NCBI RefSeq assembly: GCF_000735605.1 | Contig: NZ_JPKG01000006.1 | Span: 124,001-188,000 of the forward strand | Length of the DNA: 64,000 nt | Direction of reading: 5' to 3' | From: Allobosea sp. LC85 | GTDB lineage: Bacteria; Pseudomonadota; Alphaproteobacteria; Rhizobiales; Beijerinckiaceae | Translations under genes and position numbers: made by a program | Shown here: positions 18,833 to 43,429 of the stretch, piece by piece | Position numbering within the stretch: the first letter of the stretch is position 1 | How the letters are laid out: each line of letters starts with the position of its first letter | The notes under the pieces: model-generated | Database searches by the model: none | What the model saw: the letters and a program-made list of their open reading frames with translations, nothing else | What the model was told of the DNA's origin: nothing

Positions 18833-18847
18833 GCGCTTCGCTCGACC

Positions 18848-18882
18848 ATCGGACCGGATATCGTATCCGGTCCGAAATCTAG
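18848..18882. repeat. Composite repeat, module A
   Basis: A perfect 11-bp inverted repeat CGGACCGGATA-TCG-TATCCGGTCCG (18850-18874) with flanking ATC and TCTAG. It sits 13 bases before the first module B hairpin. Related copies next to module B lie at 37889-37923 and 42687-42723. Confidence 0.8.
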
Positions 18883-18894
18883 CCTTCTGTCTTC

Positions 18895-19063
18895 GCATCG
18901 GCTTTCCCGAAAACCGCAATCCACTTTTCGGGCCGATGCAATAGCCTTCTGCGCTCGCATCGGCTTTCCCGAAAACCGCAATCCACTTTTCGGGCCGATG
19001 CAATAGCCTTCTGCGTTCGCATCGGCTTTCCCGAAAACCGCAATCCACTTTTCGGGCCGATGC
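18895..19063 (-). repeat. Three tandem module B hairpins, 62-bp period
   Basis: Three identical 45-bp hairpin units at 18895-18939, 18957-19001 and 19019-19063, separated by 17-base spacers that differ at only one or two positions. Each unit has outer arms GCATCGG/CCGATGC and inner arms CCCGAAAA/TTTTCGGG, broken by a CTTT bulge and an 11-base loop. Read from the moeA side, the array starts one base after the moeA stop codon. Single copies occur at 37827 and 42739. Confidence 0.9.
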
Positions 19064-19064
19064 T

Positions 19065-20321
19065 TCAGGCGATCAGGAGATCATAGGCGAGGAACGGCAC
19101 GAGGGTTCCGGACTCGATGCGTGTCAGCTCCTCCGCGAGTTCCACCAGCCCGTCCGTGCGTGTCAGCGAGGTCATGACGCCGGCTCCGTCCCGGGGATGC
19201 TTCGATGCAATCTTGACACCATCTGCTCCCGAAGCGAGCGAAACACCGACATATTCGCGCCGTCCCGGCTTCTTCCGATAGGAGAAGCCGAGCCTGACGA
19301 GCAACGGCACCGGAGCAGCGTAGGCCGAGCCCGCGAGCCGCGCCACGACCGGGCGTGCGACAAAGGCGAAGGTAACGAACACGGCAACCGGATTTCCCGG
19401 CAAGCCAATGAACGGTACGCCTTCGATGAGGCCCATGGCCACCGGCCGGCCGGGCTTGATGCCGATGCGCCAGAAGACCAGCGCGCCGGCCTGTTCGACC
19501 GCCGCCTTGACATGGTCCTCCTCGCCGGTCGAAACGCCGCCGGAGGTCAGGATCAGGTCGCAACTCCGGGCCGCCTCGCGCAAGCGTCCAGCCAGGCTGT
19601 CCGGCTCGTCACGCAGAATGCCGAGGTCGACCACATCCGCACCCGCCCGCGCCACCATGGCCCGCAACGCAGCCCGGTTCGCGTCGTAGATCGCGGCCGG
19701 TGGCAAGGGCGCCCCGGGCTCCACCAGCTCGTCGCCCGTCGAGAAGATCGCGACACGCGGCCGGCGGCGAACCTCGACCGAGACGCAGCCGAGCGCGGCC
19801 AGCAGCGCGAGATCCTGCGGCCGCAGGCGCCGACCTGCCGACAGGGCGGTCTCTCCGCGCGCGATATCCTCGCCGGCCGGCCGGGCATTGGCACCTTGCG
19901 CGAGGCCTGCCGGGAGAAGAACGAAGCCTTCCTCCGCCGTCACATCCTCCTGCATGAAGACGGTATCGGCCCCCTCCGGTATCGGCGCGCCCGTGAAGAC
20001 CCGCACGGCCACGCCTGCAGTCGCGACGCCGGCCGCATCGGCTCCGGCGGCGAGACGGCCTGAGAGCGCGAGTCGGGTCTCACCTGCTGACGCCAGATCG
20101 ACGAAGCGCACCGCATAGCCATCCACGGCGGAATTGGCGAAGGGCGGGAGATCGAGGCCGGCCACGACATCGCTGGCGAGAACGCGACCATCGGCATCGG
20201 CCAAGGCAATCTGCTCGGTGCCGTCCACCGGCTGAATCCGCTGGCCCGCAAGTTCAGCCGCCTGCTCGATGCTCATCAGGGGGGCCCCGAAGGCGAACGA
20301 ATCCTCGCTGAGCTGCGCCAT
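19065..20321 (-). CDS. moeA: Molybdopterin molybdenumtransferase MoeA
   Basis: 418 residues; ATG at 20321 with GAGGGCAGG upstream. The MoeA landmarks are in order: PPFANSAVDGYAVR, FTGAPIPEGADTV, GDELVEPG, TSGGVSTGEEDHVK, and GLPGNPVAVFVTF. It inserts molybdate into adenylylated molybdopterin. It is seven bases downstream of mobB on the same strand, consistent with a two-gene cofactor-maturation operon. Its 3' end abuts the triple hairpin repeat. Confidence 0.94.
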   Translation of the reverse strand: MAQLSEDSFAFGAPLMSIEQAAELAGQRIQPVDGTEQIALADADGRVLASDVVAGLDLPPFANSAVDGYAVRFVDLASAGETRLALSGRLAAGADAAGVATAGVAVRVFTGAPIPEGADTVFMQEDVTAEEGFVLLPAGLAQGANARPAGEDIARGETALSAGRRLRPQDLALLAALGCVSVEVRRRPRVAIFSTGDELVEPGAPLPPAAIYDANRAALRAMVARAGADVVDLGILRDEPDSLAGRLREAARSCDLILTSGGVSTGEEDHVKAAVEQAGALVFWRIGIKPGRPVAMGLIEGVPFIGLPGNPVAVFVTFAFVARPVVARLAGSAYAAPVPLLVRLGFSYRKKPGRREYVGVSLASGADGVKIASKHPRDGAGVMTSLTRTDGLVELAEELTRIESGTLVPFLAYDLLIA

Positions 20322-37336: not shown

Positions 37337-37825
37337 ATGTTTCAGGCACAAGCAATCGCGAGCAGCGACAAGGCCGGGTTCTATCGCGAGCTGACCTCGC
37401 AGCTTGAGGGCCTGCTGGCAGGAGAAAGCGACCCGATCGCCAACGCCGCCAATACCTCGGCACTGCTGTACCAGATGATGCCGGACCTGAACTGGGCCGG
37501 ATTCTACATCATGCGGGACGGCGAACTCGTTCTCGGGCCCTTTCAGGGCAAGCCGGCCTGTGTCCGCATTCCCGTCGGGCGCGGCGTCTGCGGAGCGGCG
37601 GTCGCCGGCCGGCAATCCATGCTGGTGGAAGATGTTCACGCGTTTCCCGGCCATATCGCCTGCGATGCGGCCTCGCGCTCGGAGTTGGTCGTGCCGCTGA
37701 TCCGCGACGGTGAGGTGATCGGCGTGATCGACCTCGACAGCCCCCACCCTGCCCGCTTCGACGCCGCCGATCAGGCCGGAGTCGAACGGCTCGCCGAGAT
37801 CTATCTGGCTGCGAGCGCCCGCTAA
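37337..37825 (+). CDS. msrC: Free methionine-(R)-sulfoxide reductase (GAF fold)
   Basis: 162 residues, one GAF domain. Three cysteines, C75, C85 and C109 ([14 protein letters not shown] and HIACD), have the same spacing (10 and 24) as the catalytic/resolving cysteines of E. coli fRMsr. LNWAGFY and [14 protein letters not shown] are also conserved. It reduces free Met-R-sulfoxide in the cytoplasm, coupled to thioredoxin. The module B hairpin starts one base after its stop codon. Confidence 0.9.
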
Positions 37826-37826
37826 A

Positions 37827-37871
37827 GCATCGGCCCGAAAAGTGGATTGAGGTTTTCGGGAAAGCCGATGC
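37827..37871 (+). repeat. Composite repeat, module B hairpin
   Basis: 45-bp hairpin beginning GCATCGGCCCGAAAAGTGG, one base after the msrC-like TAA. It differs from the copies at 18895 and 42739 at a single loop base (A instead of C). Module A follows at 37889. Confidence 0.88.
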
Positions 37872-37888
37872 AAACACAAAAAGGCGAG

Positions 37889-37923
37889 ATCATCGGGCCG
37901 GATACGAGATCCGGTCTGATGAT
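37889..37923. repeat. Composite repeat, module A (diverged)
   Basis: ATCATCGGGCCGGAT-ACGAG-ATCCGGTCTGATGAT, an imperfect palindrome related to the copies at 18848 and 42687, in the outward position relative to module B. Confidence 0.75.
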
Positions 37924-37978
37924 CTGGACCGCGCCACCCTCCCGCTGTGTGCGGATTGCCAGATGCGAGATCAGTCGA

Positions 37979-38716
37979 TCAGCAGGCAGCCGGCGAGAAT
38001 ATCTCCTTTGGTTCCGCCGGTTGATGCACGGCGCCGTGCTGCCCAGGCGCGAGTGGGTCCGGGGCCGGCGTCGCCCCCCATCTCGCCAGGGCCGTGCGGC
38101 CGGCGTCGGTCAAGGCATAGACTCCGCGTCCGGCTCGTTCGAACCAGCCATAGACGTTGCGGTGCAGGATCTTCTGTGCGTCCGGGCATGATTGCTTGAG
38201 ATCGCGCGGCCGCTGCGGGCCTGCCGTCATGGCTGCAGCGCAGGCGAGCGCCTGCTGCCGATAAGCCGTCATGATCGGCGCGCGCGAACCGCCACCTGCA
38301 ACGGGGTCCCCCTGACGCCGCTTATGCTCCTCCACGAGCTTCGAACGCCGTTTGGCATCCTTGCGCGGCGTCGGCGCGGCCGGGGAAACGAGGATATCGA
38401 CGCGACCGGAGGAAGCGACCCCAAGAAGTCCGAAACCGAGATGCCGGCACAGGTTGCGGTAGCGGGAATCGCTCTCGCGTCCCTTCCCCCGCACCGACAA
38501 CCGGGCTGCAAGCCAGATCTCGTCACCGAGCTTCATCCGGTCCACCCCCTGCAGGATAAGCTCGAGATTGAAGCTCAGCTTCAATTCTCCGACCACGACG
38601 ACTGCCGGATCATCGCCTTTGAGACCAACAAGGTCGCAGCGCTCGATCTCACCCTTCACGCAATAGCCCAGGCCTTCGAGGAAGCGTTTGACCGGCAGAT
38701 AGAGGGATGTTTCCAC
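37979..38716 (-). CDS. DUF2161 (PD-(D/E)XK nuclease-like) protein
   Basis: 245 residues from a GTG at 38716, with GGAG seven bases upstream and the typical N-terminus VETSLYLPVKRFLEGLGYCVKGE. CDLVGLKG and the ELK of VVVGELKLSF fit the catalytic core of the PD-(D/E)XK superfamily. A basic segment (TPRKDAKRRSKLVEEHKRR) near residue 140 and a C-terminal helical domain follow. The family is annotated as DUF2161 and its target is unknown; no methylase or restriction partner is nearby. Confidence 0.8.
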   Translation of the reverse strand: METSLYLPVKRFLEGLGYCVKGEIERCDLVGLKGDDPAVVVVGELKLSFNLELILQGVDRMKLGDEIWLAARLSVRGKGRESDSRYRNLCRHLGFGLLGVASSGRVDILVSPAAPTPRKDAKRRSKLVEEHKRRQGDPVAGGGSRAPIMTAYRQQALACAAAMTAGPQRPRDLKQSCPDAQKILHRNVYGWFERAGRGVYALTDAGRTALARWGATPAPDPLAPGQHGAVHQPAEPKEIFSPAAC

Positions 38717-42543: not shown

Positions 42544-42686
42544 CGGAGTGCGCTTCGCTCCGTCGGCCAGATCATGGCAGTCGGCAGAACTCGGAGACCG
42601 GCATAGCCCGGTCAGCTCCGCGGCGTTTCATATCGGAAAGCCCGGTCCAGAGGCAGCGAGAACCGCCGCCTCAAGGATGACGCCTA

Positions 42687-42723
42687 GATCATCGGACCGG
42701 AAATCGTATCCGGCCCGATCATC
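42687..42723. repeat. Composite repeat, module A
   Basis: GATCATCGGACCGG-AAATCGTAT-CCGGCCCGATCATC, an imperfect palindrome related to 18848-18882, 15 bases before module B. Confidence 0.8.
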
Positions 42724-42738
42724 TAGCCCTTTGTGCTT

Positions 42739-42783
42739 GCATCGGCTTTCCCGAAAACCGCAATCCACTTTTCGGGCCGATGC
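42739..42783 (-). repeat. Composite repeat, module B hairpin
   Basis: 45-bp hairpin identical to the units at 18895. Read from eda, it begins one base after the eda TAA. It can form a long stem and may also end eda transcription. Confidence 0.9.
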
Positions 42784-42784
42784 T

Positions 42785-43429
42785 TTAGCCGCGGATCGCC
42801 TTCACGGCGTCCCGCGCTTCCCTCGCAAGCTGGGTCACGCGCGCCCAGTCGCGTTTCGCAACAGCATCCGCCGGCACGAGCCAGGATCCCCCGACACAGA
42901 TCACCTGCGGCAAAGCAAGGTAGTCGGCGAGATTGGCGAGGCTGACGCCGCCGGTCGGGCAGAATTTCAGCTGCGGGAACGGCCCGGATAACGCCTTCAG
43001 CACCGGCGTGCCGCCCGCCTGCTCGGCCGGGAAGAACTTGCAGGTGACCCGGCCGGCCGAGACGGCGCGCATGCAGTCCGAGGCCGTCGCCACACCCGGC
43101 AACCAGGGCAGGCCGGCCGCGCGCATCGCCTCGTCCACCGCCTCGCTGAACCCCGGGCTGACCACGGCCTGCGCGCCCACCCGCTTGACCTCTGCAACCT
43201 GCAAGGGCGTCACGACTGTGCCGGCAACGGAAAGGATTTCCGGCACCTCGCGGGCGATCCTCTCAAGCGCGGCCAGCGCGGCAGGGCGACGCAGCGTGAC
43301 TTCGATCACATCGATGCCCCCCGCAAGCAGAGCGCGGGCCAGTGGGACCGCGACCTCGGCCTCGTCGATCACGACGACCGGGACAACGCCACAGGCTTTG
43401 AGGCGTGCAATTTCGGGTTCGCCTGACAT
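42785..43429 (-). CDS. eda: 2-keto-3-deoxy-6-phosphogluconate aldolase (Eda)
   Basis: 214 residues. Schiff-base K131 lies in VTCKFFPAE, catalytic E43 in IDVIEVTLRRP, and the phosphate loop in CPTGGVS. It splits KDPG into pyruvate and glyceraldehyde-3-phosphate in the Entner-Doudoroff pathway and may also act on 4-hydroxy-2-oxoglutarate. It follows pgl by 29 bases, giving zwf-pgl-eda; edd, the enzyme between Pgl and Eda in the pathway, is absent here. Confidence 0.93.
   Translation of the reverse strand: MSGEPEIARLKACGVVPVVVIDEAEVAVPLARALLAGGIDVIEVTLRRPAALAALERIAREVPEILSVAGTVVTPLQVAEVKRVGAQAVVSPGFSEAVDEAMRAAGLPWLPGVATASDCMRAVSAGRVTCKFFPAEQAGGTPVLKALSGPFPQLKFCPTGGVSLANLADYLALPQVICVGGSWLVPADAVAKRDWARVTQLAREARDAVKAIRG

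Follow-up and report, generated by a model that had tools for sequence, protein, structure and literature searches.

The window analysed here, a stretch of 64,000 nucleotides with a G+C content of 65.6%, comes from a 6.56-Mb draft genome (G000) and carries three copies of AAGCATCGGCCCG, at 19053-19065 (minus strand), 37825-37837 (plus strand) and 42773-42785 (minus strand); in a shuffle control, none of 100 shuffles gave at least three matches with up to one mismatch. The TRA triplet directly before each copy is the stop codon of a gene, namely TGA of moeA, TAA of a GAF-domain gene and TAA of eda. The original prediction was that a 45-nt hairpin starts one A past the stop codon of moeA, of the msrC-like GAF-domain gene and of eda, and this holds at all three loci, while identification of the genes bears out the accompanying statement that they are unrelated to each other. 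The hairpin is real, but as a unit it is only the left half of an element of approximately 103 bp with two hairpins: at each of the three loci a second hairpin (B), a palindrome of the type GATCATCGG...CCGATGATC, follows after a linker downstream of the first (A). According to our own crude gene caller, all three loci are gaps between convergent genes. No match to an Rfam family above the gathering score was found in the window. The features at the three loci are:

18842..19067, minus strand: element behind moeA, in which hairpin A occurs three times (period 62) and hairpin B once; GA in place of TA at the right edge
19065..20321, minus strand: moeA; ends at the edge of the element with TGA, which differs by one letter from the consensus TAA
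37337..37825, plus strand: GAF-domain gene (msrC-like); stop TAA at 37823-37825, completed by the first A of the element
37823..37926, plus strand: full element behind the GAF-domain gene; edges TA (left) and TG (right), boundaries taken from the family comparison
37827..37871, plus strand: hairpin A of the GAF locus, 45 nt, the unit of the original prediction
37888..37924, plus strand: hairpin B, a GATC...GATC palindrome forming the right half of the GAF-locus element
42685..42787, minus strand: full element behind eda, 103 bp including both TA copies
42785..43429, minus strand: eda (KDPG aldolase), 214 aa, ending in TAA at the edge of the element

In the array behind moeA, the second and third copies of hairpin A lie away from any stop codon. 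Tandem arrays of hairpin A, with two to four units, a period of approximately 55-62 bp and a single left end, are found at window positions 18885-19068 and at L025-L027, L071 and L086 of the sample described below, and probably expanded by slippage or recombination after insertion.

The element is absent behind the GAF-domain gene in two close relatives, the near-complete genome G073 and G069, and in both the gene ends with TAG at the same codon. The moeA gene of G073, likewise free of the element, also has TAG at the same codon. The eda site is empty in relatives, reading TTAA in G073 and TTAG at locus L098. The eda gene is closest to that of an unclassified Rhizobiales isolate (97%), with named Bosea strains next, which places the source genome in the Bosea group. 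Its stop comes after 214 codons in 17 of the 19 nearest loci, L098 among them; the match is partial at the other two, L113 and L115, where counting from its first position gives 208 and 241 codons, and a stretch of N lies near L115. The stop codon of eda among these 19 loci (L098-L116) is TAG in seven, TGA in nine and TAA in three, while the last codons remain alignable. Stop identity at eda thus changes fast.

Across the whole genome, the core CGAAAAGTGGNNNNNGGTTTTCGG is matched 341 times with up to two mismatches, and its reversed control not once. Our sample covers the first 100 places in the list of these 341 matches, on contigs C4 to C32, except for three (C27:184, C32:239 and C32:101630); the 97 places together with six copies in flanks gave 103 copies, or 90 instances once tandem arrays had been joined. 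The ends of the element are well defined in the sampled copies, as left flanks are unique up to the consensus YTAA followed by AGCATCGG and right flanks are unique beyond CCGATGATCTAR. The right end was recognised in 67 of the 90 instances, and among these 67 the unit measures 103 bp in 26 and 103-106 bp in 57. The left edge is TA in 60/90 instances and the right edge in 52/67, leaving 30 left and 15 right edges that do not read TA today. C or T precedes the left TA in 56/60, and A or G follows the right TA in 49/52. A 3-bp match overlap had hinted at duplication of CTA, which is ruled out: among nine copies in which T precedes the left TA, every one has CTA at the right end nonetheless, and the duplication is therefore of TA, not CTA.

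A different palindrome (around GTTTGGACGAAATCGTCCAAAC) with TAGATC-type ends was seen in the right module of instance L022, where it stands in the place of hairpin B, and downstream of the copy at L041, which suggests a second MITE family with common ends. A search of 41 genomes for the core pattern, again with up to two mismatches, was positive in 32, counting the source genome, and the element family is therefore likely to be wider than the genus. A related array, GCACGTC..CCGAAAAGTGGGAACTGGTTTTCGG, starts after GGTAAA at approximately 1480-1640 of locus L092, in a genome from another family of the same order (G038).

Anchoring at stop codons is two-sided, the edge letters serving genes at both ends of the element. 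The left edge is the stop codon of the gene on the same strand in 26 of 57 scorable instances (TAA in 19, TAG in four, TGA in three), and the right edge is the TAG stop of a convergent gene in 16 of 32. The remaining 31 genes on the left end further upstream, mostly at TGA (22/31), and 18 of the 31 copies behind them keep TA at the left edge, which shows that the TA edge does not owe its presence to the gene. In total 43 of the 90 instances are located at stops (25 anchored on the left, 15 on the right, one on both sides and two assigned by the gene caller alone) and 47 elsewhere, with gene starts and stops taken from our crude codon-usage caller. A fixed orientation relative to the gene, which the original prediction had included, is true of all three window loci and is a feature of those loci; it fails in the wider sample, where the right end also anchors convergent genes. 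About half of the copies examined lie exactly at a stop codon.

Empty sites were compared in 800 kb of sequence from G073, requiring both flanks on one segment and strand, which made 21 of the 90 instances comparable and left 69 out of the comparison. Inspection by eye gave 13 empty sites, five that share the element and three undecided. The script had labelled 14 as empty and seven as filled; by eye L020 became shared, L054 empty, and L022, L072 and L075 undecided. The copies common to both genomes (L019, L020, L021, L024 and L053) are all decayed. With 341 matches in the genome and 13 of 21 comparable sites empty in a close relative, the element is both multi-copy and polymorphic between close relatives, as is characteristic of IS630-type MITEs.

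Nine of the 13 empty sites hold a single TA in G073, read as CTAG, CTAA, CTAC, TTAA or GTAG, while the other four (L052, L054, L082 and L083) have TG or CA where the source genome has TA. At L011, L018, L052, L055 and L076 the flanks overlap in G073 by exactly two bases, which are TA at four of these and TG at L052; since the element is flanked by TA left and right in the source genome, this indicates a two-base duplication. Duplication of a TA target on insertion, a further feature of IS630-type MITEs, is thus observed at the cleanly aligned sites. The edges in the source genome are themselves altered at some loci (both at moeA, the right one at the GAF locus, the left one at L012). The two close relatives agree at L052 and L054, where G073 and G069 alike have CTGA. 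Of eight genomes, G069 alone gave a readable junction at L052, whereas seven further members of the genus at L054 gave GTAG in three, CTGA in three and TTGA in one. Since G073 and G069 look like sisters, the change between TA and TG at these two loci may have gone either way, and given TG or CA at four of 13 empty sites some insertions may have used a target other than TA. The turnover of the eda stop makes the empty sites with TGA less worrying, though it does not settle them.

A candidate parent for the element is resident in the same genome, in which a profile search found six IS630-type DDE_3 matches. IS630 elements duplicate TA, and the title of a cited study states a preference for TA in CTAG (PMC2170065). 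The copy at L217 spans 1,041 bp from TA to TA, with TAGAGCGTCGGAC at both ends, T before its first TA and G after its last. Its transposase is split over two frames, of which the C-terminal one scores 125.5 bits against NF033545 (IS630), above the cut-off of 100, and the N-terminal one 49.3, below it; given the split, an active source would be hypothetical. A minority variant of the repeat starts with TAGAGCATCGGACCGAAAAGTGGAATCCGG, which is identical to the right end of L217 at 25 of 30 positions and to the left end at 19 of 30, while the best match elsewhere in the window and 400 kb of G073 reaches at most 21/30. The common form of the repeat reaches 21/30 against the right end of L217, so that the likeness of the element's terminal inverted repeats to those of a resident IS630 element is close for the minority variant and one end of the insertion sequence. 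An IS630 relic in G073 has the end TAGAGCATCGGAC. We looked for ends at ten DDE_3 loci, which come from four genomes: an inverted repeat beginning TAGAGC is present at three (L216, L217 and L224), with different letters behind it in L216 and L224; L219 has one matching end, and the other six have no ends of the TAGAGC type. Another IS630-type element (L222, L223) lies near both ends of contig C24 of the source genome, as expected of a repeat that breaks an assembly.

We conclude that the repeat is very probably a miniature inverted-repeat element of the IS630/Tc1-mariner type which inserts at YTAR and whose copies have been filtered by selection. Our confidence is high that it is a mobile element and moderate that an IS630 transposase is the enzyme that mobilises it. 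According to the proposed mechanism, the element would be a non-autonomous MITE of approximately 103 bp, with the outer arms of its two hairpins serving as imperfect terminal inverted repeats; it would insert at TA, preferably within CTAG or YTAR, and duplicate the TA, and an IS630 transposase would move it in trans. The left edge reads TA followed by A, and the right edge, on the other strand, TA followed by G, so that an element landing on the TA of a TAA or TAG stop keeps that codon a stop whichever way it points. In a G+C-rich genome the surviving insertions would be mainly those that break neither coding sequence nor promoters, that is, insertions at stops and in convergent gaps, with other insertions presumably removed by selection rather than avoided through targeting. 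Survival at stops and in convergent gaps would yield the rule that the hairpin begins one base after a stop.

The closest alternative is that the element or its transposase is actively directed to stops or to the 3' ends of genes, for instance by way of the terminating ribosome, of transcription termination or of a protein bound at these places. We compared the insertions with the YTAR sites available in the window plus 620 kb of G073 (684 kb together, with elements masked): stops hold 60, convergent gaps 18, tandem gaps 174, divergent gaps 152, coding sequence 182 and segment edges 14. The 90 insertions are distributed as 43, 12, 20, 8, 6 and 1 over the same classes. Stops account for 43 of 83 non-coding insertions compared to 60 of 404 non-coding YTAR sites (p = 4e-15), and this raw excess, with edge letters that complete the stop, bears out the suggestion that the element inserts at stop codons. 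The excess would also suit active targeting, as would the TGA, devoid of TA, that a relative has at two or three of the stop sites. However, the ratio of insertions at stops to those in convergent gaps follows the ratio of the available sites (43:12 observed, 60:18 available, Fisher p = 1.0, with 12 and 18 convergent sites behind the comparison), so that no targeting specific to stops is needed, whereas insertions in tandem gaps, divergent gaps and coding sequence are strongly under-represented relative to stops (Fisher tests). The 47 instances away from stops, and the TA edge kept by copies whose left gene ends further upstream, also argue against active targeting, and we regard it as very unlikely. 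A TA target combined with loss of the insertions that disrupt a gene or a promoter is the simplest reading, in which selection is the conjectural part. The claim that random insertion could not produce the pattern does not stand, as a TA target, a stop rebuilt by the edge and loss from genes and promoter gaps can reproduce it.

It is very improbable that the hairpins are kept by selection as a 3'-end unit, whether as a terminator, an mRNA stabiliser or a ribosome-stalling element. The copy at the GAF locus has a very stable predicted RNA fold of -50.7 kcal/mol (z -7.9), and E. coli REPs no more than 15 nt from a stop are described as stalling ribosomes (PMC5082802), both of which would be compatible with such a role. 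At the one locus scanned for intrinsic terminators (a G+C stem and a T run), positions 37500-38300 contain none. Selected pairing was sought in the outer stem, the one stem counted, over 103 copies and 721 cells, and is rejected: there are no compensated pairs, ten one-sided changes and 37 broken pairs. The decay of all five copies shared with G073, the absence of the element from 13 sites there and its position behind three unrelated genes in the window also speak against such a unit. Retention as a processing or termination unit, one of the two explanations offered by the original prediction, is not needed given the missing compensation and the decay of shared copies, though a secondary effect of the hairpins is possible.

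The other explanation offered, that the element supplies the stop codon and so shortens or lengthens the gene, is almost certainly wrong. The last letter of the stop does belong to the element at both edges. Ten of the 13 empty sites in G073 are stop codons, however, and by eye G073 uses the same stop codon in nine of these, with the C-terminus unchanged, as do the element-free relatives at all three window loci; the comparison of orthologous C-termini that had been proposed thus shows a difference at L081 alone, where the proteins of the two genomes differ by two codons. The last alternative, a classical REP or BIME moved by a RAYT (Y1 transposase), would fit the palindromes, mostly intergenic location, hundreds of copies and tandem arrays, but can be dismissed as next to impossible in view of the TA duplication and the IS630-like ends, and a search of the source genome for RAYT (PF01797) gave no matches at E <= 0.001 with three candidates scored, while the control was positive in five of 14 genomes, E. 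coli among them.

Under an IS630-type MITE origin, a puzzling positional rule comes down to a simple mechanism, in which an element with a TA target and edges that rebuild the stop both ways can accumulate on the TAA and TAG stops of a G+C-rich genome, with no need for targeting of stops. The combination used here, of empty sites, both element ends and the share of available TA sites, is a test that other 3'-end repeats, such as BOX and the rhizobial palindromes, could be put to before any role at the ends of genes is ascribed to them. A hairpin abutting a stop may itself affect termination, and the copies provide a natural experiment on its effect on termination and mRNA decay. We consider it rather unlikely that stops act as a shared landing pad which, by placing the same strong hairpins at the ends of unrelated frames (43/90), where terminating ribosomes would run into them, has rewired translation termination or the decay of mRNA for scores of genes at one stroke; if this were true, TAR stops would be safe harbours for mobile elements and shape stop-codon usage.

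The open-access literature that we searched yielded no account of this element or of a stop-codon rule for an IS630 MITE. Among known systems, RUP of Streptococcus pneumoniae, a MITE of the IS630-Spn1 type, is similar in having 107 bp, 108 copies, TA termini and a TA target, and in ends that resemble those of a resident IS630 element by which it is thought to be moved in trans; it differs in sequence and host and, as far as its description was available to us, prefers insertion in or near IS elements rather than stops (PMC2229807). BOX, in the same species, is comparable in that 36 gene 3' ends lie inside a BOX, which supplies the stop, while strong evidence that these genes are truncated is lacking (PMC3049150). 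It is unlike the present element in being modular and similar to another insertion sequence (ISSpn2), and the sections of its description used here do not include a rule of TA regeneration.

RIME consists of two palindromes over approximately 108 bp. By description, RIME and other rhizobial palindromic repeats are similar as short intergenic palindromes of related bacteria (PMC2573895), and Br-REP1 and Br-REP2 of Bradyrhizobium as palindromic repeats in 3'-UTRs (PMC5082802); an IS630 origin is absent from the portions of both descriptions consulted, in contrast to the element described here. The IS630/Tc1-mariner insertion sequences themselves share the TA duplication, the CTAG preference announced in a cited title (PMC2170065) and, in the resident copy, the terminal sequence, whereas the present element, at approximately 103 bp, is too short to encode a transposase.
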